This document shows positions 1,894 through 31,506 of a stretch of DNA of 33,669 bases, piece after piece. Source of the stretch: an uncultured bacterium (GTDB lineage: Bacteria; Verrucomicrobiota; Kiritimatiellia; RFP12; UBA3636); the NCBI GenBank assembly GCA_902793555.1, contig CADBEF010000003.1, forward strand, positions 1 through 33,669. Reading direction: 5' to 3'. The stretch's first letter is position 1, and each line of letters opens with the position of its first letter. The notes beneath the pieces are model-generated. The model saw only the letters and a list, made by a program, of their open reading frames with translations. It was not told where the DNA came from and did not search any database. Position numbers and translations under genes: made by a program.

Positions 1894-1921
1894 ATGCTAC
1901 CAAAAATCAGGCGGTTTGCAA
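1894..1921 (-). promoter_or_regulatory. candidate promoter for the acyl-CoA dehydrogenase gene
   Basis: TTGCAA (1916-1921) and TAGCAT (1894-1899) are 16 bp apart on the minus strand, each matching 4 of 6 consensus positions. The -35 element sits inside a perfect 10-bp palindrome, GTTTGCAAAC (1914-1923), which could also be a regulator site. The predicted leader is about 30 nt. Confidence 0.35.
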
Positions 1922-1939: not shown

Positions 1940-1968
1940 TTGCATTCGTTCCGGGTTTTTGCTAGAGT
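1940..1968 (+). promoter_or_regulatory. candidate promoter for the tRNA pair
   Basis: TTGCAT (1940-1945) and TAGAGT (1963-1968) have an ideal 17-bp spacing. They lie about 50 nt upstream of the first tRNA, consistent with a short 5' leader removed by RNase P. The region 1856-2020 therefore holds divergent promoters and no gene. Confidence 0.45.
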
Positions 1969-2182: not shown

Positions 2183-2221
2183 GGAACCCGCCGCGGCGCA
2201 CGCCCGGCGGGTTCCCTTTTT
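2183..2221 (+). terminator. rho-independent terminator after the tRNAs
   Basis: A perfect 11-bp stem pairs GGAACCCGCCG (2183-2193) with CGGCGGGTTCC (2205-2215) around a 10-nt loop. It is followed by CTTTTT. It lies 4 nt after the second tRNA and just before the -10 of the next gene. Confidence 0.88.
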
Positions 2222-2231
2222 CGCGCGGACC

Positions 2232-2240
2232 TGCTAGAAT
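2232..2240 (+). promoter_or_regulatory. extended -10 promoter of the fumarase alpha gene, leaderless-type
   Basis: TGCTAGAAT is an extended -10 element (TG, one base, TAGAAT at 2235-2240). It ends 8 nt before the ATG at 2249, so transcription would start at or next to the start codon. No convincing -35 is seen because the tRNA terminator occupies that space. No Shine-Dalgarno sequence precedes the ATG. Confidence 0.45.
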
Positions 2241-2248
2241 GCGCCGCC

Positions 2249-3109
2249 ATGGACACGACGAAAGCCACCGACATCCTCGCGGACCTGATCCGCCGCGCCT
2301 CCACGGAACTGCCCGCCGACGTCCTCGACGCGCTCGCCCGCGCCGAAGAGGCCGAGGCGCCGGGCGGGCCGGCGCGCGCGTCGCTGGCGACGATCCGCGA
2401 GAACGCCCGCATCGCCCGCGAAGGCTCCGTTCCCGCCTGCCAGGACACCGGCACGCCGTCCTTCTGGTTCGACCTGCCGGACGGAACCCCCGTCCTGCCC
2501 CTGCGCGAGGCGGTCCGCGAAGCGGTCGCCCGGGCGACCGCCGCCGGGCACCTGCGCCTGAACGTGATCGAGGTGCCGTCGGGGCGGCAGGTTTCGTCCA
2601 ACTTCGCGGAGGGTTCGCCCGCGATCCATTTCCGCTTCGGTCCGCCGGAAACGACCGAGCCGCGCGCGACGGTCCTCCTGAAGGGCGGCGGCTCGGAGAA
2701 CCAGGGCCGCCAGTATTCGCTGCCCGATTCCGGGCTCGGCGCGGGCCGCGACGCGGAGGGCGTCCGCCGGTGCCTGCTCGACGCCGTCTGGCGCGCGCAG
2801 GGAGCTGGCTGCGCGCCGGGCGTGCTCGGCGTCTGCGTCGGCGGCGACCGCGCGGGCGCCTTCGCGTGCGCCAAGGAGCAGCTGCTGCGCCCGCTCGCGG
2901 ACGAATCGCCCGACCCGGCGCTGGCGGCGCTGGAGAAACGCGTCCTCGCGGAGGCGAACGGCCTGGGCGTCGGCCCGATGGGCCTGGGCGGCCGCACGAC
3001 GCTGCTGGGCGTCAAGATCGCGGCGAGGCCGCGCGTCCCGGCGTCGCATTTCGTCACGGTCGCCTACAACTGCTGGGCCGTGCGGCGCGCGTCCGCCCCG
3101 CTGGCGTAA
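2249..3109 (+). CDS. class I (iron-sulfur) fumarate hydratase/tartrate dehydratase, alpha subunit
   Basis: This 286-residue protein matches the alpha subunit of two-subunit [4Fe-4S] fumarases and L(+)-tartrate dehydratases. They interconvert fumarate and malate, or dehydrate tartrate. The three cysteines expected to hold the cluster are visible: Cys64 in ACQDTGT, Cys188 in GAGCAPGVLG and Cys275 in NCWAVRR. LLKGGGSENQ (residues 143-152) is the family substrate-binding block. The ATG at 2249 was preferred because the frame upstream runs through the terminator and the tRNA. The promoter places the transcript start next to this ATG. The beta subunit normally follows directly, but here the next gene is convergent, so beta must be encoded elsewhere. 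Fumarase is more likely than tartrate dehydratase on general grounds, but sequence alone does not decide. Confidence 0.92.
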   Translation: MDTTKATDILADLIRRASTELPADVLDALARAEEAEAPGGPARASLATIRENARIAREGSVPACQDTGTPSFWFDLPDGTPVLPLREAVREAVARATAAGHLRLNVIEVPSGRQVSSNFAEGSPAIHFRFGPPETTEPRATVLLKGGGSENQGRQYSLPDSGLGAGRDAEGVRRCLLDAVWRAQGAGCAPGVLGVCVGGDRAGAFACAKEQLLRPLADESPDPALAALEKRVLAEANGLGVGPMGLGGRTTLLGVKIAARPRVPASHFVTVAYNCWAVRRASAPLA

Positions 3110-3211: not shown

Positions 3212-6200
3212 CTACCGGACGAACTTCCACTCGCCGTCGGGATCGCGGTAGAGCGTCCCGGAGGGCTTGGCGGCGCCGGGATCGACGAAGCGCCAGTTGC
3301 CGTCGGCGTCGCGCACGAGCGTGCCCTCGCCGCGGGCGGCCTCGCGGAAGGACCAGGTGCCGGTCGCGTCGCGGAGCCAGGTCCAGTAGGACCAGGTGCC
3401 GTCGCCGTTGTCGACCATCTTGCCGTAGTCGGCGTAGATCTTCACGCGGTAGAAGCCGGCGGTGAAGTCGACGCCCTCGGCCTGGTCGGCCGGCGTCATG
3501 CGGGCCGTGCCGGGCGCGGAGAGGTGGTCGTTGACGCCGTCGCCGGCCGCGTAGAAGACCGCGCCGTCGTCGTTGGCGACGTCGAACGTGGCGACGACGC
3601 CCCACGCCGGATCGTCGAGCGCGGCCTTGCGCTGCAGCTCGTACGTCAAGACGACGCCGGGCCGGAGGGCCGGGTAGGCGATGTCGACGTACGGAACGCC
3701 GTTTTCGTCGAAGGCGAGCGCGGGCACGGCGTAGGGCACGGCTTCGTCCGCCTTGTTCGGATCGGAGCCGGCGAGGAACTCCTCGAGGTCGCCGATGCCG
3801 TCGCCGTCCGTGTCCGTCAGGTGCGTGTCGGTGCCGGTCACGAGGATTTCCATCGCGTCCGTGAGGCCGTCCAGGTCCGTGTCGGGCGTGCGCGGGTCGG
3901 AGTCGAGGACGCCGTCCGCGTATTCCTCCCAGTAGGCGAGGCCGCCGGCGGAGGAGGTCTGGTAGCCGCTGACGGAGAGGGTTCCGCCGAGTTTCCACCA
4001 CTCCCACGCGTCGGGCAGCAGGTCGTTGTCCGTGTCGCGGTCGTGCAGGACGATCATGAGGCCCTTGACGTCGTCGCGGACGACGATCGGCGAGGCCGCC
4101 GGGTCGAGGTTCGGGCTGACGGTGCCGGTCTGGACGGCGACGCCCTGCGTTTCCCAGTCGTCCGCCACGCCGTTTCCGTTGGAATCGACGAACGCGCGGA
4201 TCGCGTAGACGCCGCCGACGAGGTTCGACACGGCGAAGGCGCCCTTTTCGCGGCGCACGGTCTGCAAGACCGGAACGCCGGAAACGGAGGTGCTCGTCTT
4301 CGCCTGGTCGGCGACCTTGAACACCTGGAGCACGAGGTCGTGCGGGAACGTCTTCTTGACGAGGACGATGCGCAGGCCGGACGCGGGCTTCTTGGCGAAC
4401 TCCAGGTGGATGTCGCCCGTCTCGTAGTCGATCGTGCCGGACCAGGCCGTGCTGGTGGCGTTGGTCGTGCTGGAGGCGTAGAGGATGCCGTCGGCGGCGG
4501 AGTCGTTGAAGAACTCCTCGGCCCACGTGCCCTCGCCCGCCTGCCAGTTGTCGGGCGTTTCCGTTCCCTGCGCCTGCGGCGCGCGGACGAGCAGGACGCC
4601 CATCGCGCCGGGCGCGACCAGGCCCGGATCGACGTTCGCCTCGAACGTGTTGTCGGCGGCGACGCCGGCGGTCGTTCCGAGTTCGGCGACGACTTCGCGT
4701 TCCATCACCTTTCCGTAGTACCGGATGGTTCCTTCGGCGGTGTAGAGACCGCGGTTCTCGCCGGAGTTGTCGAGGTGGAACTTCTCCTGGACGGCTTGCT
4801 GGCCGTAGACCGTCGTCTGCACGCGCGTGCGCTCGGTGATGCGGTACATGTAGTAGCCGTCCTCGAGCGCGAGGAACTTCTTGGGATCCTCGAGCTGCGG
4901 CGTGGCGGTGTAGTAGTAGAGGTCCGTGCCGGGCTTGCCGTGGCAGAGCGGGAATCCGACCGTGAGGTCCTCGACGACGGGCGTGCCCGTGTCGTCGTCC
5001 GGTCCGGAGAGCTTGTACAGGTCGAACCGGACGCCGGCGTTGCGGGAATCCATCTCCCACTCGAACTCGACCACGTTGCCGCGGACCTTCGTGAGCTGCG
5101 TCGGGTAGCGGGCCTTCAACGGGCGGCGGCTTTCGGGCGTGCCGCCGTAGACCTGGAACACGCCGCCGGCGAGGTCCTGCTTGCGCGGGCCGTCGGTGGC
5201 CGCGACCTTCCAGGTCACGTCGATCACGTTGGTTTCGCCGAGGAGGAAGCCGTACCCGATGCGGTTTCCGTAGTTCTCCACGGGCAGGATCTGCGTGGCG
5301 CGCAGGAGGTCGGCCTCGTGGAAGAAGGTACGCGGCGCGTCGACGACGCAGCGGTAGACGTTGCGCGTGATCGTCTGGCTCGACGAGGTCGTCGTGGACA
5401 CGTCCACGCGGGCGACGCGCGTCGTGGAGAACAGGTACGTGTTCACCCAGTCGTAGCCGGCGGGCACCGCGGCCGGCAAAGTGCGCAGGGCTGCGGCCTT
5501 CCACTGGGCGGCCGTTCCGGTGTAGCTCTGCGGCTTGCCGTCGCCGTCCGTGTCGCGGTCGCGCAGGACGACGTGGACGTCCTCCAGGTCGGCGGCCACG
5601 CGAAGGGTCGAGTTGGTGATCGCGAGCGGCGGGCACCAGGACGGGACCTGGATCGGGCAGGCCGAACCGCCGAGGAAGCCCCAGCCCTGCGTGTCGCCGG
5701 GACCGAAGCGTCCGTCGCCGTCCGAATCGACCCAGCCGACCACGGCGTAGTAGCCGGCGGAGAGGCCGTGCAGCTCGAAGTAGCCGTTCGCGTTCGGCGT
5801 CGCCTTGGCGACCGGGTTGCCGGAAACGCCGAGGCTCGTCGACGCCTTCGCGGGCAGCGGGTACGCCTGGACCACGGTCTTGCCGGGCACCAGTCCGGCC
5901 GCGAGGCGGCCGTAGTAGTGGACGTGGCCCTTGATGGCCGCGTACAAGCGGGAATCGTCCTGCGCGTTGTTGATCGCGAAGGAACCGTTCACGCTCTGCG
6001 CCGCGACGGACGACGGGCCGTTGTTGATGTTCTCCTTGATCGTGTACGTGTAGGTTCCGCTCGGCAGGTCGACGAGCGAGCGGCCGTTCTCCAGCTGCGG
6101 AACGTAGGTATAGTAGTAGTCGTCGTCCGTGACCTTGCCGTGGCGGACGGGGAACGGCACGTAGAGGTTGTCGATCACGGCCGTACCGGCGGCGTTCTTC

Positions 6201-9200
6201 ACGGTGAAGAACACGCCTTCGGTGCGCCAGTCCATTTCCCACTTGAACTCGACGAGCGAGCCGTAGACGGTGGAGCCGGCGACCGGGGAGACTGCCTTCA
6301 TCGTCCGGCGCGTGCCGGTGCCGGTGTAGCTCGTTTCGGTCGTGTAGTTGGGCTTCAGGGCGAGGACGAACGAGCCGGTCGCGAGGTCTTCCTCGCCGGT
6401 GGTGTTGTCCGCGTGGACCTTCCACGTGTAGACGCCCGACTCCTGGCCCTTCAGGTCGATGCCCTTGAGACCGGCCTCGACGTAGTCGCCTTCGTGGACG
6501 AAGGTGCGCGGGGCCTCGACCTTGAGCTTGGCGACGCGCGTGCCGGAGGAGTTCTCGATGAACACCTGGTAGGCCGTCACGTTCTCGTTCGTGCTCGCCG
6601 GCCAGGAGAAGCGCGGGAAGCCGAAGAGCTCGTCCGTCAGCGGAATCGTCGTTTCGACCGAATCGGGCCCGACGAGCACCGCGTCGTACAGCGAAAGGCC
6701 AGCGGGCTCCCCGCCGTCCCAGGTTCCGTTCCCGTTTCCGTCGAGCCAGCCGAAGAACCGGTTGTAGCCGCCGACGGCGTGGGTTCCCTTCGTGCGGATG
6801 AAGCCGCCGATCTCGAGCGGATAGGTGTACCCGTCGAGCTGGTATTCGATCGAGAACTGCTTGCCGACGAGGGGCCCGGTGCACAGGACGTAGCCGGCCT
6901 CCATCTCGAGGTAGAGCGCCAGGCCGTCCGCCTCGCTGGCGAACTGCAGCATCTCCGGGTTGAACGCGGAGGACGTGTACGTGACGTCGCTCGCCGGGTC
7001 GTCTTCGACCATGCGGACGGTGATCGTCGCGGACCGGACGTTCCCGTAGGGCAGCTTCGTCGCGGCGAAGGAGGAGCCTTCGACGACGCGCGTCCCGTCG
7101 GAACCGAAGACGAGGCCCGCGATGGCGACGCCGTCGCCCGTGGTGTACAGGCCGTCGGGCGAGCCGCCCATGTAGATCGTCTTGGCCCCGTCGCCGTTGA
7201 GGGTCGTGCCCTTGCGGCGCTCCGAATAGGTCGCGACGGTCGGATTGGCGGAGCCGAAGACGCCGCCGGTCCCGTCGCCGGCGCCTTCCGGTGCGGCGTA
7301 GTCGCCGGCGTAGAGGAACCGCAGCGACATCTTCGGCGTCGGGAACGAACTCGCGCTCCGGGGATCGCTGCCCGCGAGGTACTCCTCGTAGTTGGTCCAG
7401 CCGTCGTCGTCGAGGTCGCCCTCGGCGTCGTAGCGGTCGGGATCGAGGCCGTTGTCGATTTCCCAGCGCGCGGGCATCATGTCGCCGTCGTCGTGGAGCT
7501 CGCCCCAGGTGAGGGCGCCCGCGGCGGACTGGCTGTCGTAGTCCATGCGGCCGTCGCCGGCGGAGTCCATCTTGTCGTCGGAGGTGCCGGCGCGATCCTC
7601 CTGGTGCGGGTCGAGGCCGTCGCCGTCGCGATCGCCGTAGGCGCCGCCGCCGACCAGGTTGGTCGTCGAGTGGTGCTGGTCCGGGTCGTCCGACACGTCC
7701 GCGATGTACGAGAACGTGACTTCGTAGGCGGTCGGGACCATGTTGGTGAGCGCCCCTTCCGTGACGAAGGGGGACCAGTCAAGGCGCGGGTAGTCCCACA
7801 GCGAATCCGTGAGGGGAATCGTCGTCTCGACGTTGTCCCAACTCACGAGCGACGGACGCGGGATCGAGAGGCCCATCGGTTCGAAACCGGGGGTCCACTT
7901 GCCGTCGCCGTCGAGGTCCAGCCAGCCGAGGAACCGGTTGTAGCCCGACACCATGTGGTCGTGGGTGCCGGCCGCGATGCGGGTCATGCCCCTGACGGCG
8001 TACGGGAACGACCGTCCGCCGACCGTGTATTCGACCGTGAAGTTGCTCCCGACGACGTCCGTCCCCGGATCGAGGTAGATCGTTCCGGACGACAGGTGCA
8101 GCAGTCCGAGCGACCCTTTGGCCTTGTTTTCGAGGAAGACGCCGTAGTCCGGGTCCGTCTCGTACGGCTTGAGGGTCTGCGTGGTCGTGGACCCGTTCAG
8201 CAAGTACGAAATCTCGGCCGTGCCGATGTTGACGTTGTTGAGGGAGTGGATCAGGGAGAACGACCTCGTGACGCCGCCCAGGCTCAATCCGACGCCGTCG
8301 CCGGCCCGCGCGAACTCGCCGCTCTCGACGATCGTGCCGCGGTAGCGGCCGTCGTACCAGCCGCCCATCTTGGGGAGGCCCTTCAACGGATCGTCCTTTT
8401 CGACGCCGGTCGTCTTTTCGCTGTACGTCTCGAGGTACGGAACGCCGACGACGGTCTGGTCCTCGTCCGCGAACACGTTTTCCCCGTTGTAGTAGAACGT
8501 GGCGTTGAAGAGGGGCTGCGGGAAGATGTCGGCGCGGTCCGGCTCGGTGCCGGCCATGAACTCTTCCCAGTTGGTCCAGCCGTCGCCGTCGAGGTCGGCG
8601 TTTCCGTCGTGGCGGTTCGGGTCGATGCCGTAGCGGATTTCCCAGGCGTTGTCCATGCCGTCGCCGTCGTCGTAGAGCTCGCCGTAGGTGAGGCTGCGGC
8701 TGTCGGGACGGGAGTAGTAGTCGGAGTAGCCGTCCGAATCCGTGTCGTAGCGGAAGGGGCTCGTGCGGGCGAGGTACTCGGCGTAGTTGTCGAGGCCGTC
8801 GCCGTCCGGGTCGCCGTAGGCGCCGTTCCGGCCGTCCGCGGAGTTCGGATCGAGCCCGTAGGCGATTTCCCACCAGTCGGGCATGCCGTCGCCGTCGGAA
8901 TCGATGCCTTCGACCGCGGTTCCGCGGCCCTTGCCGTCCCACATTTCGACGTCGATGTCGGCCACCGCGTCCATGAGCGGGAGCATGTCGGAGAGGACGG
9001 GCACGCCGGTGTAGCGCCCGTAGAAGTCGAGCTTGCCGGCGAACGCGGCGGGGGCGATTTCCATCGGACCGCTGACCGCGGTGCGGTAGAACATCCCGTA
9101 CGGGTTCATCGAGTTGCGGATCTGTCCGAGCTGGACGTCGGTCGAGCCGGCCGCGGGAAGCTGGGCGGGAACGACGTCGTCCTGGCGGTACGGGATGAAA

Positions 9201-12200
9201 TTCGGCGCGATCATCGCGTCGTTGAGCCAGTCCAGCGGCGAACGGTAGCGGTAGGACGAAACCGTCCACGTGCCTTCGTTCCAGTTGGGGTGGAGGCCCT
9301 TCATGTCGAGCGCGGGCGTCTGCGGCATGTGCGCGACGGTGTTCTCGATCCACGGGACGTAGGAGTAGTCCGTGTAGACGTTGGACCGGTGCTGGGCCGT
9401 GTACCACCACGGGACCAGGTGCGGGAACACGAGCGAGCGGTAGTGGTACCAGAACGGCGCGGACCAGTACGGCGTCGGGCGGTACGCGGAGACGGTGTCG
9501 CTCTGCCAGCCGGCCGGGAACGCGTCGGCGTCGGACGTGAAGTACTCGGCGAACGACGTGTCGCGGTCGCGGGAGGGCAGCACGTCGGGCAGGTTGTCGA
9601 ACGCGAAGTGGTAGAGCAGCTTCTGCGGGAAGTCCGACATCGTGGTCGCCACGAGGAGGTTGGTGCCGACGCGGTCGGGCTCCCAGCCGTCGAGCTCCCA
9701 CGCGAGGCGACGGCGGTTGATCTCCTCGATGTCGTCCTTGGTGAAGCGCTTCGTCATCGAGTTCTTGATCTCGGAATGCGAGCGGCAGCGGTCCCAGATG
9801 CGGACTTCGTCCATCCAGCCGACGAAGTACTGGTCGGGATCGAAGTCGGGCTCGCTCTGGCCCATGACCGTCCCGGCCACGGCGGTGCCCCAGGGGAAGG
9901 TTTCGTAGGCGCCGCCGACGACGCCCCACGGGTTGCGGTCGTTGGCGCCGAGGACGATCGGCGCCGGGCTGTAGTCGTAGAGGTTGGCGGTCTCCCACTG
10001 GCCGTTCAGGCCGTTGGGCGACTGCCACTGGCGGCCGAAGAGCCCGCCCGTGCAGGGCTTGAGGCCCGCGCCGACGCTGCCGGCGTATTCGCCGTTGAGG
10101 TAGATGGCGAGCCGGTCGTCGACGGAGTCCATCACGACGGCGACGTGCGCCCAGTGGTTCGGGACGAGGCGGCCCGTGGAGACGGTCGTGGCGGACGACA
10201 CGGTCTCGAGCCCGTCGTTGTCGACCTGGGCGTGGACGCGGCCGAGGTCGTCGAGCTGGATCAGGAACGTGTTCCGGACGCGCCAATGCGTGGCGCCGGA
10301 CGAGTCGTCCACGGGCATGAGAACGGGACGCTGGACGAGCGTGGCGCGCTTGCCGGGGGCGGGCAGCTCCTGCGGACGGACCCAGAACTCGACCGTGTAG
10401 CTCGTGAGCGAGAACTTGTCGTGGTAGTACGGGTTGCGGGTGCGGGCGGCGGCGTGGCCGTCGAAGTAGAGCGCCTTGCGGTTGCGCGGGCTGTCGAGGT
10501 CGAGCGGGTCGGTGACGCCGCTGTTGTCCCCCTGCGAAAGCTCCTCGCGGTCGGAGATGTTGTCGTTGTCCGTGTCGAAGCCCTCGTTGACCTCGAAGTC
10601 GAAGAGGTACGTCGGGCCGTCGGCGTCGGTTTCGAGCAGGTCGAGATCCCACCACCAGTAGAGGGAACCGAGCTCGCCGTCGACCTTGTAGTAGAGGTTC
10701 ACGAGGGACTCGGCGTAGGTCGGATCGGTGAACCAGTAGGGCGAGGGATCGGTGTGGTGCAGGACGTCGTTGAGGAGGTAGTCGTAGCCTTCCTCCTCGT
10801 TGGCGAGGCCGTCCTGGTCCGGGTCGGCGAAGCGGTCGCCGGCGAGCCACGGGCGGGTCTTGTAGTCGAAGTGGGCGGCAGCCGCGACGGGGTAGCCCAT
10901 CGGCGTGTGGAACGGCGCATCCTCGCGCGGGACGGGCTGCAGGCCGGCGTCGGTCGGGTCGAGGATCCGGACGTAGGCCGGATCGGCGTTGATGATCCAG
11001 TCGCGCGTCGAGCCGTTGCCCCACGGGTGGACGTCGGCGCGGTCCTGCTCCGGGTAGCTGCCGGCCTTGCCGACGACGGGCGAACCGCCATAGAGCGGGT
11101 TGAGGCCGTGGTAGATCTCCCAGTAGTCGTCCATGCCGTCGTTGTCCGTGTCGGGCGAACGCGGCAGGCAGGTCGGGTAGATCGACTTGGTCCCCATGAA
11201 GCGCCAGAGCACGGGCGGACCCGGGTCGACGACCTGGACGTCCTCGGGCTCCCAGCCGGCCGGAGCGCGGCCGTAGGAGTACATGTAGTCGCGCAGGTCG
11301 TTCTCGGCGCAGGGCGTGCCGTCCCAGAGCGTGTAGAACTCCTCGATGCTGATGAACGCGGTGGGCAGCTCGGCGCCGGTCTCCGGATCGTGGTCGAGCA
11401 TGAAGCGGCCTTCGACGTCATGCGTGAGCGCGTAGATGCGCTGCATGTAGTTGGCAATGGGGGAGACCTTGAACTGCGGGTCCTCCTCGGCCTTCGCCAG
11501 GTCGTTCAGCGTGGGCGAATTGCTTTCGTCCCAGCCTTCCGCGGCCAGGATCCTGCCGTCTTCCTTGAACTCGTGCACGAGCGCGCGCTGCCAGCGCTTC
11601 TCGAGGCACTGGACGGTGGTGAGGATTTTGTTGATGCGCACGTCGCTCGGATTTGCGCGGAAGAAGTCGGACGGACGGTACGGCTGGAAGTGGACGGACT
11701 TGCCGTAGGGATAGCCGTCGGTCGCGATCGGGACGGGCGGGACGAACGTGTTGCAGACGTCGTAGAGGCGCAACGCGGCGCCGGGGATCGGGTCGATGCT
11801 GTAGTTGGCGGCGATCCAGGGGTCGGAGGCGATGCGGCCGGCGAGGTGGTCGTCCCGCATCGAGTAGGGGGCCTGATACGCGCCGAAGGGCACCCAGAGC
11901 TCCTCGTGGTCGGGGCTGTACCACTTGTCGTAGCGCCAGCCGTAGACGGCGCCCGCGAGGTACTCCTGATAGTTCGGAAGGCCGTCCCGGTCGGGGTCGC
12001 CGTAGGGGCCGAACTCGCCGAGCTTGCCGGCGCCGAGGGCGTTCTCCGTGTCGTAGGTGCCGGTGTAGTAGTGCCAGGCGTCGCCCATGCGGTCGAAGCG
12101 GGTGTCGGCCGAGGCGGGGTTGAGGTTGACGAGCGGATCGCCGTCGCCGTTCCAGTCATAGTCGCCCTCGCGGTATTCGGCGGCGTCCGCGACGCCGTCG

Positions 12201-15200
12201 CCGTCGGTGTCGCCGTGCCACGGGTCGGTCGGGAAGCGCTTGTTGGTCCAGGCCTCGGCGGTCGGCTTGTACCAGTCGGCGTTGTGGTAGTGGCCGACGC
12301 ACTGCTCCTCCTCCAGGTAGACGTTGCCCTCCTGGGCCTGGCGCGTCTCGTACATCGTCCAGTTCTCGAACTCCTGGCGCCAGCCGAGGCCGTCGCCGGC
12401 CATGTCGTCCGGATCGGGGCGGAGGGCGTCCGGGCAGAACGGGAAGGGGAACAGCGCGGCGAAGACGTGGTCGATCAGGTCGATCGAGCCGGCGGGCTTG
12501 TAGCCGGCGTAGAGAGCCCAGCCGTCGGGGATGTGGTCCTGGTTGGAGTCGTCGCTGCGGGGGTTGAGCGACTTGACCATGTTGCCCGCGGCGTCGACCC
12601 ACTGGGCCGGGTAGACCAGCTGGGTGAACATCGGATAGTTGCCGGAGTCGTCCTTGCCGATCATCCACTTCTGGACGTAGAACTCCTCGCGGGAGGTGAA
12701 GGCGATGTTGGGGTTGGCGATCGGAGCGGTGTGGGCGCCGGCGCCGGGAATGAAGCCGAGGGAGACGGCGCCGTTCCAGAAGAACTGCTGGAAGTAGTCG
12801 TAGAGGAAGGCGTCGCAGTGGCGGTAGGGCCCCGAGGCGTACATCATGTCGCAGTCGGGGTTCTTCGCGGCGTCGGTCGGGTCGTGCGGATCGAGGTCGA
12901 AGAGCAGCTCCCAGCCGTCGGGCAGACCGTCGTTGTCGGTGTCCCAGTGGAGCGGGTTGGTGCCGATGTAGAATTCGTCGATGTCGGGCACGCCGTCGCC
13001 GTCGAGGTCGTCGACGGGGTTCCACAGGGCGGGGGAGAGGCCGATCGCGCCGAGGATTTCGCCGAAATTGGGGTCGGCGATGTTGGGCGTCAGGCCGCCC
13101 TGCTCGCTGCGGGGGTCGAACTGGTTGAGCAGCCACGCCTTGGGGAAGAGGCCGTTGAGCGTGCGGTAGCTCGCGGAGAGCTCGGCGTCGCGGGCGCCGA
13201 TCACGTCCTGGATGTAGGTCGGGAAGGCGTCGTAGCCGGGCAGGAAGAACTGGCCGGTCCGGAAGTCGACGTAGGCGCCGGGGATCTCGCCGGGCTCGGT
13301 GTCGGCCCCGATGGCCGAGGGGTAGGTTCCCTCCTGGCCGGCATAGGAGATGTGGGGGTTGCCGTCGGCGTCGATGTAGTCCGCGAACTGGCGCGGGTCG
13401 AAGAAGAGCTTGGCGCGGCCGAGCGCGTCCACGTGGCCGTCGCGCGTGTAGACTTCGAGACCGCCCATCGTGAAGACGACGGCGGGGGTCGGTTCCTCGT
13501 CCATCGGATCGTCGTAGTAGGCGACGGCGGCGATGGGCGCGTTGGTGAGGTAGTTGGGCTTGTTGCTGCGGGTGGTGGGGTCGAGGTTCGGGCTGCCGTA
13601 GTAGCACTCGTCGCGGATGAGCTCGGGCTCGAAGGTCTGCGGGGCATAGCGGACGAAGAGCCCGCCGTCCCACTCGGCCTCGTAGCCCTCGAGGGCCTGG
13701 CGCAGCAGGGGGATGCCGGCCCCGCGGAAGTCGGCGGTGCCGCCGGGGGCGAGGTTCGGGTAGAGCGTGAAGGTCGGGTCGTAGGCGCGCCAGTACTCGG
13801 GGCGGTTCTCGTAGAGGATCGTGGTCCAGAAGTAGTACTCCCAGCCGTCCTCCATGCCGTCGCCGTCGGTGTCCGCGGCGGTCGGGTCGGTGCCGGGGCA
13901 GTTGCCGCGGACGGCGAGGTTCGTGCGGGAAAGGACGCCGGGGTAGCCGAAGGCGACCCAGTTCGGGGCGTTCTCGACGTCCGCGGAAATCTCGGACGAG
14001 GTCTGCTGGAGGCCGCGGAACTCGAGGATGTTGGAGAAGAAGGGCTTGGCGGCTCCGCTGCGCTTGCTGGCGAGCACGTCGTAGGTGCGGCCGGTGACGG
14101 ACGGGGAAACGAAGGGCACGTCCTCCTCGCCGACGTGCGTTCCGTAGTCGACGTAGTTGGCGCCGTTCACGAGCGGGTAGACGAAGACGCGGACCTTGTT
14201 GTCGCCGTCCGGGACGTAGTAGGGGTCCTCGGTCCAGACGTTGTCGATCTCCTCGTAGCGGGAGGTCGGGACGCGGTCGTTGTCGGCCGTGTCGTCGGCG
14301 TTGTAGAACGTGCCGCCGGCGAAGGCGGTGCCGGAGGAGCCGTAGATGCCCTTGCCGACGGTGACGGCGAGGGTCTGCCATTCCGTGAAGGAGTGGGTCG
14401 CGTTGTCCTTGCCGCCGTCCAGGTACCAGGCCTCCCATTCGTCGGACAGGCCGTCCTGGTCGAAGTCGCCGAAGTTGTCGATCCGCGCGAGGGTGAGCTC
14501 GTTCCAGTAGTTCTTGTAGGGATACGAGGAGAAGTAGCGGATCGTCGCGGCGCCGCCGGCGCCCGGCGTGTTGATCAGGATCGCGCGCGTGTTGGGGTTC
14601 GGGATGTAGAGGTCGGACGGCGCGGAGGCCAGGTTGAGCTGGTCGTCCGGGAACATCCAGCCGAAGGGATAGGCCACCGGCACGTCGGCGGCGTTCCGGG
14701 GGATGACCGCCTGGACCATCGTGTTGTTGTCCGCCTTGAAGTCGTTGCCCGTCTCCTCGTTCCAGGGATTGGACGCGTCGTCCATCCGGGTCGTGGCGGG
14801 ATTGATCACGAAGTCCGCGGGACCGTTGCCGCCGGCGGTGACGATGGCCGAGAGCGTGCACTCGTCGGTGAAGAGGATCTTGCTCGACTCGAGCAGCGTC
14901 ACCTCGAAATAGCCGGTCTCGGACGTGCCGCCGTCCTTGTCGGAGGCCGACACCGTGATGATTTCGCCGTCGGCGGAGACGCGCGCGGAGACGTTCGCGC
15001 CCGTTTCGGCGGAGTTGGACCAGTTGTAGACGAGCGACTGGCGGTCCACGGTCGAGGCGTCGGTCGCGGTGGCGTTGAAGTTGAAGGGGGCGCCGGCGAG
15101 CGCCTGGATCGGCGTGGGGTTCTCCGGGTCGCGGCTGGGGTACTGCAGCACGGGCGGGACGTTGGTGATCATGATCGTGGCCGAGGCGCCGCCCGTGTAG

Positions 15201-15880
15201 GCGGTGTCGCCGGTGAACGTGAACGTGATCGACGAGGGGTTGGCGCCGTCGAGGGCGTTGAACGCGAAGTCGGCGCCGGAGGAGCGCATCGGGGCGACGA
15301 GCGTCGCCTGGTCGAACGTGACGTGAGAGCCGTCGTCCGTCGACTGGATCTGGAACGTGACGGTCTGCGGCAGGTTGTAGCCGAAGTCGAGGTGGAGGGT
15401 CTGCTGCCCGCCCTCGGGGTAGTAGAGGACCGTGCTGCCGGCGCGCGTGAAGACGATGTTGTCCGGCTCGGAGACCGTGATTGGAAGCGTCGCGGTCGCG
15501 CCGCCGAGCGTCACCGTGAGCGTCACAGTTCCGGGCGAGACCGGCTCGACGAAGAACGAGCCGAAGACCATCGTCATCGGGATGGTCACCGACGGGCCGC
15601 CGCTCAGCGCCATCTCGCCGGTCGTGGCGTTGATCCCGTAGAGCTTGACGATGTTCGCGTTCGGGACGTAGGCCATCGCCGCGGCGCCCTGCACGAGGTC
15701 GGCGGGGTCGCACTGGAAGGAGACCATCTGCGGGTCGGCGTTCGCCGAAAGCGGCAGTTCCGTCATCATGAACGACGGCGCCGCGGCGGCCGGGGACGCG
15801 AAGAGCGCCCCGAACGCGAGCGCCAGCGCGGCGGACGCGAGGCGGGAGCGGAGGGAGGTGGCGTGGAGGAACTGCTTCAT
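3212..15880 (-). CDS. giant secreted surface protein with TSP3 repeats and a LamG-like domain (4222 aa)
   Basis: A signal peptide (residues 1-34, ending SPAAAA) is followed by Ig-like beta-sandwich sequence to about residue 330. Calcium-binding TSP3-type motifs of the form DxDxDGxxDxxE recur throughout, for example near residues 480, 676, 960, 1230, 1303, 1583, 1693 and 2327. A LamG/concanavalin-like domain spans about 1800-2040 (ALYFDGHAAA.., YTVEFWVRP, WAHVAVVMD). Two different modules are each duplicated between about residues 2400 and 3960. The last 65 residues hold short Trp repeats. The middle is unusually rich in Trp and Tyr. No LPxTG, PEP-CTERM or beta-barrel anchor is recognised, so attachment is unclear. 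A calcium-dependent structural or binding role at the cell surface is inferred. It is the last gene of a three-gene operon, 72 nt after the coiled-coil gene, and ends at a strong terminator. Confidence 0.93.
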   Translation of the reverse strand: MKQFLHATSLRSRLASAALALAFGALFASPAAAAPSFMMTELPLSANADPQMVSFQCDPADLVQGAAAMAYVPNANIVKLYGINATTGEMALSGGPSVTIPMTMVFGSFFVEPVSPGTVTLTVTLGGATATLPITVSEPDNIVFTRAGSTVLYYPEGGQQTLHLDFGYNLPQTVTFQIQSTDDGSHVTFDQATLVAPMRSSGADFAFNALDGANPSSITFTFTGDTAYTGGASATIMITNVPPVLQYPSRDPENPTPIQALAGAPFNFNATATDASTVDRQSLVYNWSNSAETGANVSARVSADGEIITVSASDKDGGTSETGYFEVTLLESSKILFTDECTLSAIVTAGGNGPADFVINPATTRMDDASNPWNEETGNDFKADNNTMVQAVIPRNAADVPVAYPFGWMFPDDQLNLASAPSDLYIPNPNTRAILINTPGAGGAATIRYFSSYPYKNYWNELTLARIDNFGDFDQDGLSDEWEAWYLDGGKDNATHSFTEWQTLAVTVGKGIYGSSGTAFAGGTFYNADDTADNDRVPTSRYEEIDNVWTEDPYYVPDGDNKVRVFVYPLVNGANYVDYGTHVGEEDVPFVSPSVTGRTYDVLASKRSGAAKPFFSNILEFRGLQQTSSEISADVENAPNWVAFGYPGVLSRTNLAVRGNCPGTDPTAADTDGDGMEDGWEYYFWTTILYENRPEYWRAYDPTFTLYPNLAPGGTADFRGAGIPLLRQALEGYEAEWDGGLFVRYAPQTFEPELIRDECYYGSPNLDPTTRSNKPNYLTNAPIAAVAYYDDPMDEEPTPAVVFTMGGLEVYTRDGHVDALGRAKLFFDPRQFADYIDADGNPHISYAGQEGTYPSAIGADTEPGEIPGAYVDFRTGQFFLPGYDAFPTYIQDVIGARDAELSASYRTLNGLFPKAWLLNQFDPRSEQGGLTPNIADPNFGEILGAIGLSPALWNPVDDLDGDGVPDIDEFYIGTNPLHWDTDNDGLPDGWELLFDLDPHDPTDAAKNPDCDMMYASGPYRHCDAFLYDYFQQFFWNGAVSLGFIPGAGAHTAPIANPNIAFTSREEFYVQKWMIGKDDSGNYPMFTQLVYPAQWVDAAGNMVKSLNPRSDDSNQDHIPDGWALYAGYKPAGSIDLIDHVFAALFPFPFCPDALRPDPDDMAGDGLGWRQEFENWTMYETRQAQEGNVYLEEEQCVGHYHNADWYKPTAEAWTNKRFPTDPWHGDTDGDGVADAAEYREGDYDWNGDGDPLVNLNPASADTRFDRMGDAWHYYTGTYDTENALGAGKLGEFGPYGDPDRDGLPNYQEYLAGAVYGWRYDKWYSPDHEELWVPFGAYQAPYSMRDDHLAGRIASDPWIAANYSIDPIPGAALRLYDVCNTFVPPVPIATDGYPYGKSVHFQPYRPSDFFRANPSDVRINKILTTVQCLEKRWQRALVHEFKEDGRILAAEGWDESNSPTLNDLAKAEEDPQFKVSPIANYMQRIYALTHDVEGRFMLDHDPETGAELPTAFISIEEFYTLWDGTPCAENDLRDYMYSYGRAPAGWEPEDVQVVDPGPPVLWRFMGTKSIYPTCLPRSPDTDNDGMDDYWEIYHGLNPLYGGSPVVGKAGSYPEQDRADVHPWGNGSTRDWIINADPAYVRILDPTDAGLQPVPREDAPFHTPMGYPVAAAAHFDYKTRPWLAGDRFADPDQDGLANEEEGYDYLLNDVLHHTDPSPYWFTDPTYAESLVNLYYKVDGELGSLYWWWDLDLLETDADGPTYLFDFEVNEGFDTDNDNISDREELSQGDNSGVTDPLDLDSPRNRKALYFDGHAAARTRNPYYHDKFSLTSYTVEFWVRPQELPAPGKRATLVQRPVLMPVDDSSGATHWRVRNTFLIQLDDLGRVHAQVDNDGLETVSSATTVSTGRLVPNHWAHVAVVMDSVDDRLAIYLNGEYAGSVGAGLKPCTGGLFGRQWQSPNGLNGQWETANLYDYSPAPIVLGANDRNPWGVVGGAYETFPWGTAVAGTVMGQSEPDFDPDQYFVGWMDEVRIWDRCRSHSEIKNSMTKRFTKDDIEEINRRRLAWELDGWEPDRVGTNLLVATTMSDFPQKLLYHFAFDNLPDVLPSRDRDTSFAEYFTSDADAFPAGWQSDTVSAYRPTPYWSAPFWYHYRSLVFPHLVPWWYTAQHRSNVYTDYSYVPWIENTVAHMPQTPALDMKGLHPNWNEGTWTVSSYRYRSPLDWLNDAMIAPNFIPYRQDDVVPAQLPAAGSTDVQLGQIRNSMNPYGMFYRTAVSGPMEIAPAAFAGKLDFYGRYTGVPVLSDMLPLMDAVADIDVEMWDGKGRGTAVEGIDSDGDGMPDWWEIAYGLDPNSADGRNGAYGDPDGDGLDNYAEYLARTSPFRYDTDSDGYSDYYSRPDSRSLTYGELYDDGDGMDNAWEIRYGIDPNRHDGNADLDGDGWTNWEEFMAGTEPDRADIFPQPLFNATFYYNGENVFADEDQTVVGVPYLETYSEKTTGVEKDDPLKGLPKMGGWYDGRYRGTIVESGEFARAGDGVGLSLGGVTRSFSLIHSLNNVNIGTAEISYLLNGSTTTQTLKPYETDPDYGVFLENKAKGSLGLLHLSSGTIYLDPGTDVVGSNFTVEYTVGGRSFPYAVRGMTRIAAGTHDHMVSGYNRFLGWLDLDGDGKWTPGFEPMGLSIPRPSLVSWDNVETTIPLTDSLWDYPRLDWSPFVTEGALTNMVPTAYEVTFSYIADVSDDPDQHHSTTNLVGGGAYGDRDGDGLDPHQEDRAGTSDDKMDSAGDGRMDYDSQSAAGALTWGELHDDGDMMPARWEIDNGLDPDRYDAEGDLDDDGWTNYEEYLAGSDPRSASSFPTPKMSLRFLYAGDYAAPEGAGDGTGGVFGSANPTVATYSERRKGTTLNGDGAKTIYMGGSPDGLYTTGDGVAIAGLVFGSDGTRVVEGSSFAATKLPYGNVRSATITVRMVEDDPASDVTYTSSAFNPEMLQFASEADGLALYLEMEAGYVLCTGPLVGKQFSIEYQLDGYTYPLEIGGFIRTKGTHAVGGYNRFFGWLDGNGNGTWDGGEPAGLSLYDAVLVGPDSVETTIPLTDELFGFPRFSWPASTNENVTAYQVFIENSSGTRVAKLKVEAPRTFVHEGDYVEAGLKGIDLKGQESGVYTWKVHADNTTGEEDLATGSFVLALKPNYTTETSYTGTGTRRTMKAVSPVAGSTVYGSLVEFKWEMDWRTEGVFFTVKNAAGTAVIDNLYVPFPVRHGKVTDDDYYYTYVPQLENGRSLVDLPSGTYTYTIKENINNGPSSVAAQSVNGSFAINNAQDDSRLYAAIKGHVHYYGRLAAGLVPGKTVVQAYPLPAKASTSLGVSGNPVAKATPNANGYFELHGLSAGYYAVVGWVDSDGDGRFGPGDTQGWGFLGGSACPIQVPSWCPPLAITNSTLRVAADLEDVHVVLRDRDTDGDGKPQSYTGTAAQWKAAALRTLPAAVPAGYDWVNTYLFSTTRVARVDVSTTTSSSQTITRNVYRCVVDAPRTFFHEADLLRATQILPVENYGNRIGYGFLLGETNVIDVTWKVAATDGPRKQDLAGGVFQVYGGTPESRRPLKARYPTQLTKVRGNVVEFEWEMDSRNAGVRFDLYKLSGPDDDTGTPVVEDLTVGFPLCHGKPGTDLYYYTATPQLEDPKKFLALEDGYYMYRITERTRVQTTVYGQQAVQEKFHLDNSGENRGLYTAEGTIRYYGKVMEREVVAELGTTAGVAADNTFEANVDPGLVAPGAMGVLLVRAPQAQGTETPDNWQAGEGTWAEEFFNDSAADGILYASSTTNATSTAWSGTIDYETGDIHLEFAKKPASGLRIVLVKKTFPHDLVLQVFKVADQAKTSTSVSGVPVLQTVRREKGAFAVSNLVGGVYAIRAFVDSNGNGVADDWETQGVAVQTGTVSPNLDPAASPIVVRDDVKGLMIVLHDRDTDNDLLPDAWEWWKLGGTLSVSGYQTSSAGGLAYWEEYADGVLDSDPRTPDTDLDGLTDAMEILVTGTDTHLTDTDGDGIGDLEEFLAGSDPNKADEAVPYAVPALAFDENGVPYVDIAYPALRPGVVLTYELQRKAALDDPAWGVVATFDVANDDGAVFYAAGDGVNDHLSAPGTARMTPADQAEGVDFTAGFYRVKIYADYGKMVDNGDGTWSYWTWLRDATGTWSFREAARGEGTLVRDADGNWRFVDPGAAKPSGTLYRDPDGEWKFVR
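4010..6525 (-). repeat. duplicated beta-sandwich module pair inside the giant gene
   Basis: Two diverged copies lie at about 6525-5530 and 5345-4010. Shared landmarks are APRTFVHEGD / APRTFFHEAD, VEFKWEMDWRTEGV / VEFEWEMDSRNAGV, PVRHGK..YYYTYVPQLE / PLCHGK..YYYTATPQLE, and HVHYYGR / TIRYYGK. Each copy ends with a carboxypeptidase-regulatory-like unit (SLGVSGNPV.. / STSVSGVPV..) and a TSP3 motif. Boundaries are approximate. The similarity is at protein level only. Confidence 0.75.
6600..8670 (-). repeat. duplicated module pair (TSP3 plus beta domain) inside the giant gene
   Basis: Copies at about 8670-7771 and 7480-6600 share the order WEIRYGIDPNRHD / WEIDNGLDPDRYD, then DGWTNWEEFMAG / DGWTNYEEYLAG, then a beta-rich domain. 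Both domains end with SGYNRFLGWLDLDGDG / GGYNRFFGWLDGNGNG and VETTIPLTDSLWDYPR / VETTIPLTDELFGFPR. Boundaries are approximate. Confidence 0.8.
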
Positions 15881-16755: not shown

Positions 16756-20115
<3,360 letters not shown>

Positions 20116-20185
20116 GGGATTCCGAAGGCTGTGAGGGGACCGGAACAAGCGACACTGCGCCCTTGGGGCGCTCGTCATGTGGCGA

Positions 20186-20214
20186 ATGATAGCACATCCC
20201 CGTGCGCGGGGCAA
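20186..20214 (-). promoter_or_regulatory. candidate promoter of the three-gene surface operon
   Basis: TTGCCC (20209-20214) and TATCAT (20186-20191) are spaced 17 bp apart on the minus strand. The hexamers match 4 and 5 of 6 consensus positions. The predicted start of transcription is at about 20179. That gives either a 60-nt leader to the ATG at 20115 or a leaderless start at the in-frame ATG at 20178. Confidence 0.45.
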
Positions 20215-20588: not shown

Positions 20589-20617
20589 TTGACAAACAAC
20601 CGGATTCCAGCCATGAT
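20589..20617 (+). promoter_or_regulatory. promoter of the 286-aa gene, leaderless-type
   Basis: A perfect TTGACA (20589-20594) is followed after 17 bp by CATGAT (20612-20617), which matches 4 of 6 positions. The -10 ends 8 nt before the ATG at 20626, so the transcript would begin at or beside the start codon. Confidence 0.55.
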
Positions 20618-20625
20618 ACCTTCCG

Positions 20626-21486
20626 ATGTCCCGCCGCGACCACTACCTGCGCGAAAAAAAGGAGCGCGAACTGCGCGACCGGCTCCGGTCCACGGTTCTC
20701 GCGCTGGCCGAGCGCAGCGCCGGATCCCGCGAATACGCCGCCGCCGTGGCGGAGTTCCTCCGCGGGCGCGCGGAGCTCCGGAAGGAGCGCGAAACCCGGA
20801 CCAAATCCCGGTTGCGGCGCGAGGCGGGGCGTCCCGCGCCCTGGGATTCCCCGCGCGCACTCGCGCGGCGGCTCGCCGTCTGGGACGTGGCGGACGCGCG
20901 CTGGACCGACTGGGCCGAACGGACGGTCCTGGCCGCCCGCGCGGGCGCCGAACCGCCGCTCGCCCCCGGCGAGCACAGGCGCGCGGGCGTGGCGAGGGAC
21001 CGGCTCTGCAAGAAGTCCCTCGCCCAGCCGCCGACGCCGGACGCCCTCCGGTCGGCATGGGCGGCGGCGCGCGGCGGACGCGGTCGGACGGCGGAGGCGA
21101 TCCGCCTGGGGTCGCTCCTGCTCGACTTGGAGGCGTCCCTCGGGGCGGCCCGGACCCGCGGCGCGGACGGCCGGATTTCCGGCCGCCAGCCTGGACTGCG
21201 GGGCTGGCTCGCCGGCCACGCCCCGGATCTGGCGGTCCGCTACGATTCCCTTCTGCGCGCGCGCCGGCTCGCGCAGGCGGCGCGGCGCGCGTACGGGTTG
21301 CGGGACCCCCTTCCCGCCGCGCTCCTGCTCGACGACGGCGGGGACCTCCCCTTCCCCGGGCCGTTGCGCGACCGCATCGGGCGCGCGCGCGCGGCGGCGC
21401 GCGCGTTGTTCGCCTCGCCCGCGGGCCGCACGTCGTCCTCCCTCGCCCCCGCCCTCGCCAACCGCCGCGCGCCGCCGGCCGGGTAA
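20626..21486 (+). CDS. hypothetical basic protein (286 aa), no family recognised
   Basis: The frame is real by its codon usage, which matches neighbouring genes, and by the promoter directly before its ATG. The product is very rich in Arg and Ala and probably mostly helical. It starts MSRRDHYLREKKERELRD, and a likely helix-rich middle includes WDVADARWTDWAERTVLAAR. A second helical part lies around residues 190-230 (LAGHAPDLAVRYDSLLRARR) and the C-terminus is Ala/Pro/Arg rich. There is no signal peptide, membrane helix or catalytic motif that I recognise, so a cytoplasmic, possibly nucleic-acid-binding protein is only a guess from charge. It is transcribed away from the surface operon and converges on the lipoprotein gene. 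An inverted repeat beside its promoter suggests regulation. Confidence 0.7.
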   Translation: MSRRDHYLREKKERELRDRLRSTVLALAERSAGSREYAAAVAEFLRGRAELRKERETRTKSRLRREAGRPAPWDSPRALARRLAVWDVADARWTDWAERTVLAARAGAEPPLAPGEHRRAGVARDRLCKKSLAQPPTPDALRSAWAAARGGRGRTAEAIRLGSLLLDLEASLGAARTRGADGRISGRQPGLRGWLAGHAPDLAVRYDSLLRARRLAQAARRAYGLRDPLPAALLLDDGGDLPFPGPLRDRIGRARAAARALFASPAGRTSSSLAPALANRRAPPAG

Positions 21487-22600: not shown

Positions 22601-22629
22601 ATTATAGCCCGAACCGCGCCGGAACGCAA
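22601..22629 (-). promoter_or_regulatory. promoter of the lipoprotein gene
   Basis: A perfect TATAAT (22601-22606 on the minus strand) lies 17 bp downstream of TTGCGT (22624-22629). The predicted leader is about 46 nt and carries CGGAGA before the ATG, so this gene uses a conventional ribosome binding site. Confidence 0.65.
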
Positions 22630-22641
22630 GGGATTTGTTTC

Positions 22642-23004
22642 TCAACCGGCGCCGCCGGCGGCGGCGAGCTCGTCCAGGATGCCGAGGACGCGCGCGCCCG
22701 CGCCGATCGCGTGCGTGGGCTTGAAGGACAGCACGGGCGTGTACTTGAGCCCCACGTTCTTCGCGACGTGCTCCTGGAAGTCCGCCCGGTGCTCCCGCAG
22801 CCACGCCAGGATCCGCGCCTCGTCCTCCGGCGTGCCGAGCACCGACACCGTCACGACCGCATTGTGCAGGTCCGGCGCCGTCTCGACCGACACGAACGAG
22901 ATCTTCGCGAGGTCCTGCGGCGAGCCCGGCGCGATCCGGTACAGCCCGGCCGCAAGCTCCCGCAGCATCCGCTCGTTGACCCTCTTGATTCTGTCCGTCT
23001 TCAT
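22642..23004 (-). CDS. rbfA: ribosome-binding factor A
   Basis: The 120-residue product has the usual length and features of RbfA, a KH-fold protein that binds the 30S subunit and helps mature the 5' end of 16S rRNA. Recognisable parts are the basic start MKTDRIKRVNERMLREL, then ISFVSVETAPDLHNAVVTVS and LREHRADFQEHVAKNVGLKY. The last matches the family pattern of a helix before a conserved Lys-Tyr-Thr-Pro (KYTPVLSF). The ATG at 23004 was chosen over a longer frame because the family begins there and a -10 element ends 8 nt upstream. In many bacteria rbfA follows infB directly. Here the two are on the same strand but about 8.5 kb apart, and rbfA appears to have its own promoter. Confidence 0.88.
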   Translation of the reverse strand: MKTDRIKRVNERMLRELAAGLYRIAPGSPQDLAKISFVSVETAPDLHNAVVTVSVLGTPEDEARILAWLREHRADFQEHVAKNVGLKYTPVLSFKPTHAIGAGARVLGILDELAAAGGAG

Positions 23005-23012
23005 GTCCGCCG

Positions 23013-23042
23013 ATTCTACCACACCCCTCCGCCCCGGCGCAA
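23013..23042 (-). promoter_or_regulatory. candidate rbfA promoter, leaderless-type
   Basis: On the minus strand TGGTAGAAT is an extended -10 (TAGAAT at 23013-23018). TTGCGC (23037-23042) lies 18 bp upstream as a weak -35. The -10 ends 8 nt before the ATG, so the mRNA would begin at or near the start codon. No Shine-Dalgarno sequence is present. Confidence 0.45.
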
Positions 23043-23048
23043 CCGGGT

Positions 23049-23123
23049 TCAAATCGTGCAGAGCCAGTTTGTCCCGCACCCAAGCCATTCTTCATTTTCC
23101 CAATGGGGAATGAATTCGATCAT
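23049..23123 (-). other. 24-codon frame overlapping the end of the 411-aa gene
   Basis: ATG at 23123 overlaps the TGA of the upstream gene as ATGA. It opens a 24-codon frame (MIEFIPHWENEEWLGCGTNW..) that stops at 23049. The same kind of overlap joins the other genes of this locus. PHWENEE weakly resembles HPDWEEYE of the hydrolase domain, so it could be a remnant of a further hydrolase copy, or chance. Confidence 0.2.
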
Positions 23124-24355: not shown

Positions 24356-24791
24356 TTCAAATTTCCCTTCGTGCAGTACTCATTGAAAAGTCCGAACACG
24401 TTTGGAAGTGCAACTGCTTTGAAATCGCTGTGTAGCCACTAGCCTCGTTCATCATGGCAGGGTTCTCCAATAACACTACCACCCGAATCCTTCCAGATTT
24501 GGATCGTCCGGTGATTTGGTGACGCCATACCAGAACTTGACCGTCCGACGGGTCAAGCTGAACCCAAGAACGTTCATAAATCCATATCGAATCCGAGAGG
24601 GGCCATTGAGAACCGGTCGGATTCCGCCACGAAAAACTATTCAGATCGAAATCGTCGGATGCATTTCCTGAAAGCGAAATGTTGACCGCCCCCTTGAACC
24701 GTTCCTGCTTCTGCCAGGAGTGGTATCCCATGTTGGCGCCAACCGTGTTGACGAGACTGTGAGCGAATATTACCATGACTGTCTCATCAGA
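24352..24791 (-). pseudogene. decayed second copy of the hydrolase C-terminus
   Basis: The region retains three landmarks of the intact hydrolase in matching order. The first is SDETVMVIFAHSLVN (compare SGETTLMAHSLGN), whose first codons overlap the 3' end of the 404-aa gene. The second is YHSWQKQERFKG (compare HLAWQKQEFGKG). In another frame it ends with WLHSDFKAVALPNVFGLF..KGNLK (compare WLHSDWKNMALPYVIPLF..KGSLQ) and a TGA at 24352-24354. About 115 residues between the first two landmarks are missing, a frame change lies between the second and third, and a TAG at 24439-24441 interrupts the final frame. A 139-codon frame from ATG at 24776 to 24357 remains open and could still yield a peptide. 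It overlaps the 404-aa gene by 7 nt and is followed at once by the 411-aa gene. Confidence 0.8.
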
Positions 24792-31455: not shown

Positions 31456-31470
31456 GCCGCCGCCCCTTCG

Positions 31471-31502
31471 GGCGCGCGCCGCGCGGCTGCGCGGCGCGCG
31501 CC
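31471..31502 (-). promoter_or_regulatory. GC-rich hairpin directly after infB
   Basis: A perfect 14-bp stem, GGCGCGCGCCGCGC (31471-31484) with 31489-31502, encloses a GGCT loop. It starts 4 nt after the infB stop and ends 15 nt before the ATG of the next gene. There is no T-tract on either side, so it is not a classic terminator. It could protect the infB transcript end, pause polymerase or reduce read-through into the accessory genes. Confidence 0.5.
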
Positions 31503-31506
31503 GGCT

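Follow-up and report, generated by a model that had tools for sequence, protein, structure and literature searches.

The window (the whole stretch of 33,669 nt analysed here) forms contig 3 of a draft genome of 3.38 Mb that belongs to a genus of uncultured gut bacteria (Kiritimatiellae), has 325 contigs and is 89% complete. It contains four genes with a putative -10 box 7 or 8 nt before an ATG, an arrangement that we call a leaderless-type start. The first is a fumarate hydratase (fumarase) alpha-type gene on the + strand (2249..3109, 286 aa; Pfam PF05681, E 4.2e-67, residues 8-283) that has TAGAAT at 2235..2240, 8 nt before ATG 2249, with a score of 19.0 on the promoter matrix described below. 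A weak -35-like TTCCCT lies 17 nt from this box (2212..2217) and overlaps the end of a terminator-like hairpin of the upstream tRNA. The rbfA gene on the - strand (22642..23004, 120 aa; Pfam PF02033, E 1.9e-13, with profile position 1 at residue 5) has TAGAAT at 23013..23018, 8 nt before its ATG and after TGTGG, forming an extended -10. Its score of 27.6 is the maximum in the window and its -35, read from the sequence as are the two that follow, is TTGCGC (23037..23042) at 18 nt. There is another gene of 286 aa on the + strand (20626..21486) without a Pfam family. It has a perfect TTGACA (20589..20594), a 17-nt spacer, and a CATGAT (20612..20617) that departs from TANNNT, ends 8 nt before ATG 20626 and has the weakest score of the four (10.5). 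Lastly, a large propeller-type gene on the - strand, also without a Pfam family (16756..20178), has TATCAT at 20186..20191, 7 nt before the in-frame ATG 20178 (score 24.1), with TTGCCC (20209..20214) 17 nt from this box.

The window also contains promoters with a conventional layout. A lipoprotein gene on the - strand has TATAAT (22601..22606, score 23.1) 53 nt before ATG 22547, and an acyl-CoA dehydrogenase gene on the same strand, assigned by Pfam, has TAGCAT (1894..1899, score 23.1) 38 nt before its called start at 1855. On the + strand, TAGAGT at 1963..1968 (score 24.5) is the -10 of a tRNA-Arg/tRNA-Met promoter (tRNAs at 2021-2178). By the matrix, these two leadered genes and the tRNA promoter belong to the same promoter class as the leaderless-type genes. 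By eye, tRNA-Met is followed at 2183-2221 by GGAACCCGCCG ... CGGCGGGTTCC and a run of T, a terminator-like hairpin that adjoins the fumarase promoter and whose 3' end supplies the -35-like element; the same layout of a hairpin running into the fumarase promoter is present in a relative (G398, locus L186). In bacteria, rbfA is often a neighbour of infB. Here infB, encoding IF-2 (31507-33576), lies about 8.5 kb from rbfA (the two spanning 22642-33576), with an 1824-aa ORF and CarboxypepD_reg-type genes between them. This ORF (25981-31455), in which many short-motif repeats are visible in the DNA, is one of the very long ORFs in the window, another being 4222 aa long (3212-15880).

A sequence-only reading of this DNA had placed the end of the -10 exactly 8 nt before the ATG in the fumarase, rbfA and 286-aa genes, and we confirmed these coordinates. 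It had also proposed a possible case at 7 nt for the propeller-type gene. That spacing holds, and the ATG itself is less certain because a gene caller blind to upstream motifs put the start at 20055; the same caller agreed with the other three ATGs (2249, 20626 and 23004). The conventional leader that it had assigned to the lipoprotein gene is borne out by the box at 53 nt, and GGAG, AGGA and GAGG are, by eye, absent just before all four ATGs, as expected from its statement that none has a Shine-Dalgarno (SD) site. It had not mentioned the -35-like elements, which we found at 17-18 nt in all four genes, weakest for fumarase.

Using the reversed pattern in the same genome as a control, we counted 66 matches of TAGAATN8ATG against 0 reversed, and 128 against 0 for TAGAATN{7,8}ATG. 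By comparison, TAGAATN{17,18}ATG had 5 against 0 and TAGAATN{7,8}GTG 7 against 0. Among the 74 TAGAAT-to-ATG pairs with spacers of 0-30 nt in 775 kb, 18 were at 7 nt, 25 at 8 and 3 at 9. Every other spacer had at most 6, and spacers 2-6 together had a single pair, at spacer 6. Thus, the genome-wide count that had been proposed as a check gave a sharp peak 7-8 nt before ATG.

We then called genes in the same 775 kb (23% of this one draft genome) by coding statistics alone, without any upstream motif, which gave 472 genes. This caller replaced an earlier one based on fifth-order statistics that was too insensitive (353 genes). With these motif-blind starts, a TANNNT at a spacing of 7-9 nt was present in 40 of the 114 genes transcribed divergently from their neighbour. 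Where the upstream neighbour is on the same strand, it was present in 8 of 126 genes if the gap was at least 60 nt and in 2 of 132 if it was below 20 nt, the operon-internal genes (divergent versus operon-internal, Fisher p 3e-13). The remaining genes had less than 80 nt upstream (13), gaps of 20-59 nt (52) or no upstream neighbour (35). At control spacers of 13-15 nt the three classes had 0, 3 and 0 cases, and at 17-19 nt the divergent genes had 2. The rate in divergent genes was independent of the choice of contigs (20/54 and 19/56 in two sampling modes; 1/4 in the window). When 150 kb of E. coli K-12 was passed through the same pipeline, the motif stood 7-9 nt before the start in one divergent gene (of 32) and two same-strand genes (of 37). 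A 150-kb stretch of a D. deserti plasmid, from a known leaderless lineage, gave 4/32 and 5/37 at 6-8 nt, a signal below the third or so published for D. radiodurans in what is a small sample.

A promoter matrix was built from the 60 genes with a box at spacers 7-9, leaving out the bases 3' of the -10. This set admits only those spacers (35 genes at 8, 18 at 7 and 7 at 9) and keeps a few weak members that have no -35 or have TATTTT. By this matrix, the best promoter of 240 first genes was in the leaderless range in 58, a number that is not independent since the matrix was trained on that range, and at least 18 nt upstream in 89; in the other 93 it was at 4-5 or 12-17 nt, or no promoter reached the threshold. 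Counts of TANNNT and of TAGAAT do not depend on the matrix. Among divergent genes the matrix had a single hit at spacers 0-6 and no hit at 12-15, and leaderless and leadered genes thus form separate classes.

The promoters of the 60 genes have a clear anatomy. The -10 is mainly TAGAAT or TAGACT and is often extended by TGn (T in 70%, G in 75%). A TTG lies exactly 17 or 18 nt upstream of it in 43 of the 60, within the 17 +/- 1 nt of sigma70-type promoters, and every other spacing from 10 to 24 nt has at most 2 cases. The start codons are 58 ATG, one GTG and one TTG, as compared with 104 ATG and 26 GTG in operon-internal genes. The caller gives ATG an advantage of 1.5 log units relative to GTG and of 2.5 relative to TTG; the pattern counts, which lack that bias, have 7 GTG against 128 ATG. 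SD-like sequences (GGAG, AGGA or GAGG) were present in 6/60 leaderless-type genes, 51/192 other first genes and 50/130 operon-internal genes. The use of SD sites in operons suggests that the anti-SD is intact. We searched the assembly for SSU rRNA and found none; GGATCACCTCC occurred in 2 of 6 pattern matches and is left unassigned. No clear class effect was seen for N-terminal hydrophobic stretches (16/60 leaderless-type versus 74/192 other first genes) or for AAA as second codon, which is frequent in every class.

These results support the earlier reading of the promoters as leaderless-type through the -35, the extended -10, the few SD sites, the near-exclusive ATG and an estimate of the start offset made within the genome. 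That reading understated the extent of the pattern, which is genome-wide and goes beyond a few genes of the window.

The estimate of the start offset comes from the 89 leadered promoters. Of these, 78% have C as base 7 after the -10 and 15% have a purine there (p 2e-9); a YR step is found at bases 7/8 in 43 promoters (p 2.5e-7 versus other positions) and at 8/9 in 38%. Fifty-five leadered promoters from three sister genomes have YR at 7/8 in 56% and at 8/9 in 29%, and no sharp YR step was seen in 68 promoters taken from five genomes of other genera. These steps suggest that transcription in this genus begins with base 8 or 9 after the -10, which in spacer-7 and spacer-8 genes is the A of ATG. 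Transcription of the leaderless-type genes most likely starts on the AUG, with the 5' end placed by the signature of the 89 promoters.

We give a probability of about 0.9 to the reading that these are sigma70-type promoters whose distance from the gene makes the A of the start codon the first transcribed base, yielding leaderless AUG mRNAs without an SD. A promoter of the primary sigma factor would be placed for a start on this A, the mRNA would carry neither a 5' leader nor an SD, and translation would begin at the AUG on the very 5' end. The route is presumably one of those known for leaderless mRNAs, IF2/initiator-tRNA or 70S. The other first genes would have leaders of about 10-130 nt, and many operon-internal genes would use an SD. 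The leaderless arrangement is predicted for roughly one third or more of the divergent genes of the genome. For the 286-aa gene of the window, the weak -10 CATGAT counts against this reading.

Transcription could instead start 1-3 nt before the A and leave short leaders such as 5'-CCAUG, which we regard as unlikely. Most spacers are 8, so that the A is base 9, and the YR step of the leadered promoters is stronger at 7/8 than at 8/9. Also, the -10 of D. radiodurans ends 6-7 bp before the ORF, 1-2 nt closer than here (PMC12340547). However, the spacer-8 genes have purines in 35% at base 7 and in 3% at base 8, and because purines are scarce at these bases the A of the ATG is the favoured start. 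C at -1 is likewise found in 92% of the 60 genes versus 66% of the 192 other first genes (p 6e-5).

It is improbable that the promoter abutting the gene is a minor one and that a second promoter upstream makes the main, leadered mRNA. The matrix does find additional hits for the 114 divergent genes, 28 of them 16-60 nt and 21 of them 61-150 nt upstream, pooled over genes. Against this, 4 of the 57 divergent pairs are leaderless-type on both sides, and their intergenic gaps of 68, 78, 97 and 104 bp have little room for further promoters. In the 68-bp gap (L081, 19300-19367) a single palindrome, TTGCAA, has exactly 17 nt between it and each of the two -10 boxes and is a putative -35 for both directions. 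In the 78-bp gap (L072, 10509-10586) two -35 elements adjoin within a larger palindrome. We dropped an apparent excess of one-sided pairs (32/57, with 4 on both sides and 21 on none), which was not clearly beyond independence.

A true start further downstream, with an ordinary leader, is very improbable for these genes as a class. The caller's start 123 nt inside the propeller-type gene is a point in its favour. However, the other starts were called without regard to the motif, and wrongly placed starts would smear out a peak that here is confined to 7-9 (at most 11) nt. Pfam matches start close to the N-terminus (residue 3 in QueA, 5 in RbfA, 6 in GatB and 8 in fumarase; residues 3-12 in several proteins), which indicates that the ATGs are true starts. 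We hand-picked 10 of the 60 leaderless-type proteins across contigs for Pfam profiles, and each could be assigned to a family, for the most part one of housekeeping enzymes or envelope proteins. Five have a profile that starts by residue 20 (GatB, an FAD oxidoreductase, a family 2 glycosyltransferase, QueA and, less closely, dUTPase); it began later in the other five, which have no bearing on the start.

Orthologues are also informative. We examined 13 reciprocal pairs of first genes, setting aside 28 pairs that were not first genes, and no examined pair had two leaderless-type members. The leadered gene at L075 2902 (29 nt) and its leaderless counterpart in G107 (9 nt) encode proteins that are 93% identical and align from residue 1, which again argues against wrong start codons. 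A second pair, L075 4232 and L085 11098, has spacings of 19 and 8 nt and 57% identity, and aligns from residues 9 and 1. Thus, orthologues switch between leadered and leaderless within the genus.

Chance or base composition, against which four cases in one window would be a weak argument alone, is refuted by the counts of 66 and 128 against 0, the sharp peak and its restriction to a class of genes.

The pattern TAGAATN{7,8}ATG is enriched in 11/11 genomes of the genus, with 10-128 matches and 0 or 1 for the reversed pattern. Public records describe the relatives as MAGs from rumen, abomasum and other sources. With the matrix, on 75-200 kb from each relative, the proportion of divergent genes with a hit at 7-11 nt within the genus was 47/114 in the own genome, 7/24 in G107, 4/26 in G136 and 1/12 in G195. 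In other genera of the family it was 0/8, 0/22 and 0/10, and further samples gave 0/44 (G017, of another family, f2), 1/12 (G359) and 0/8 (G378). Because the matrix is tuned to the genus, absence elsewhere is less firm than presence. In G353, from another family of the order, 3/16 divergent genes had a hit and the pattern count was 51 versus 1; elsewhere in the phylum, in the f66 genomes, the pattern and its control gave 23 versus 3 (G213), 23 versus 3 (G385) and 33 versus 8 (G197). These are possible further leaderless lineages. A phylum-wide survey of TAGAAT in 387 genomes is biased to lineages that use this -10 and serves as a lead only.

The fumarase gene was followed across these relatives. 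Within the genus it is leaderless-type in the own genome (8 nt) and in G398 (7 nt). In G107 and G392 the box is 24 and 19-25 nt away and there is an SD-like sequence, and G395 is ambiguous, with a GTG at 8 or an ATG at 17 nt. We looked for a fumarase promoter in G195, G396, G136 and G402 and found none. In f2, another family of the order, the matrix had a hit 6-9 nt before the ATG in 6/10 fumarase loci, and three more boxes (TATCAT or TATACT) were seen by eye. The boxes in the f2 fumarase alpha loci (L194, L196, L200-L206) are TATCAT, TATACT, TACAAT, TATAAT and TATTAT. The f2 genome G017 had no general leaderless enrichment. Because short-spaced boxes are present in most f2 loci, the leaderless state of fumarase may be an older one within the order.

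Taken together, we tentatively propose, at somewhat less than even odds, that AUG-leaderless expression from full-consensus promoters rose recently at the level of this genus, outside the phyla classically known for leaderless genes. Transcription would start 8-9 nt after the -10, and leaders would be gained and lost between close orthologues while the start codon stays fixed. The palindromic TTGCAA of the 68-bp pair would serve as the -35 of two back-to-back leaderless promoters, the shortest layout without overlapping -10 boxes. The genus would join the few lineages that have leaderless genes as a main mode of expression, and since its near neighbours differ, closely related genomes could be used to study how this mode is gained. 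In annotation, starts of this kind may be misplaced by gene finders that look for an SD, and the promoter itself would mark the start codon.

Leaderless expression is well known in Actinobacteria and Deinococcus. In E. coli, leaderless mRNAs have a strict requirement for AUG, which fits the ATG starts of the genus. E. coli differs in having only a handful of leaderless genes (counts cited in PMC3898074); in our K-12 control 1/32 divergent genes had the motif. In M. tuberculosis, about a quarter of the genes with a primary start are leaderless, with TANNNT, C at -1 and a purine at +1, all of which resemble the genus. In contrast to the genus, with its marked -35, TGn and 58/60 ATG, the mycobacterial type lacks a consensus at -35, shows TGn in 7% of its motifs and has similar ATG and GTG frequencies in leaderless and leadered genes (PMC3898074).

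In D. radiodurans, almost one gene in three has a TANNNT adjoining its ORF and the mRNA is leaderless; this box, most commonly TACACT, stands 6-7 bp upstream of the ORF, and a -35 at 17 bp has been tested (PMC12340547). With a -10 next to the ORF and no SD, the arrangement in the genus works like the leaderless systems of Deinococcota and Actinobacteria (PMC12340547, PMC3898074). It differs from the deinococcal type in that its box is at 7-9 nt, 1-2 nt farther than the 6-7 bp found there, and is mostly TAGAAT or TAGACT with TGn rather than TACACT (PMC12340547). Starts with GTG made up 3/9 candidates in the small D. deserti sample and are hardly seen in the genus.

The TA-led genes of Zheng et al. 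(2011) have TANNNT about 12 bp before the start, and among related genomes the mode of initiation changes between genes of common descent (PMC3160421). The genus is similar in the placement of TANNNT, with a positional peak near the start and scarce SD sites as in TA-led genes, and in the switching of initiation mode between orthologues. The string 'Verrucomicrobi' is absent from the main text of that paper, and the genus lies outside the groups named there (PMC3160421). Among the openly available papers that we searched, we found no report of leaderless genes in Kiritimatiellota or Verrucomicrobia. The kind of leaderless expression described here is a known one, and it is the lineage that appears to be new.
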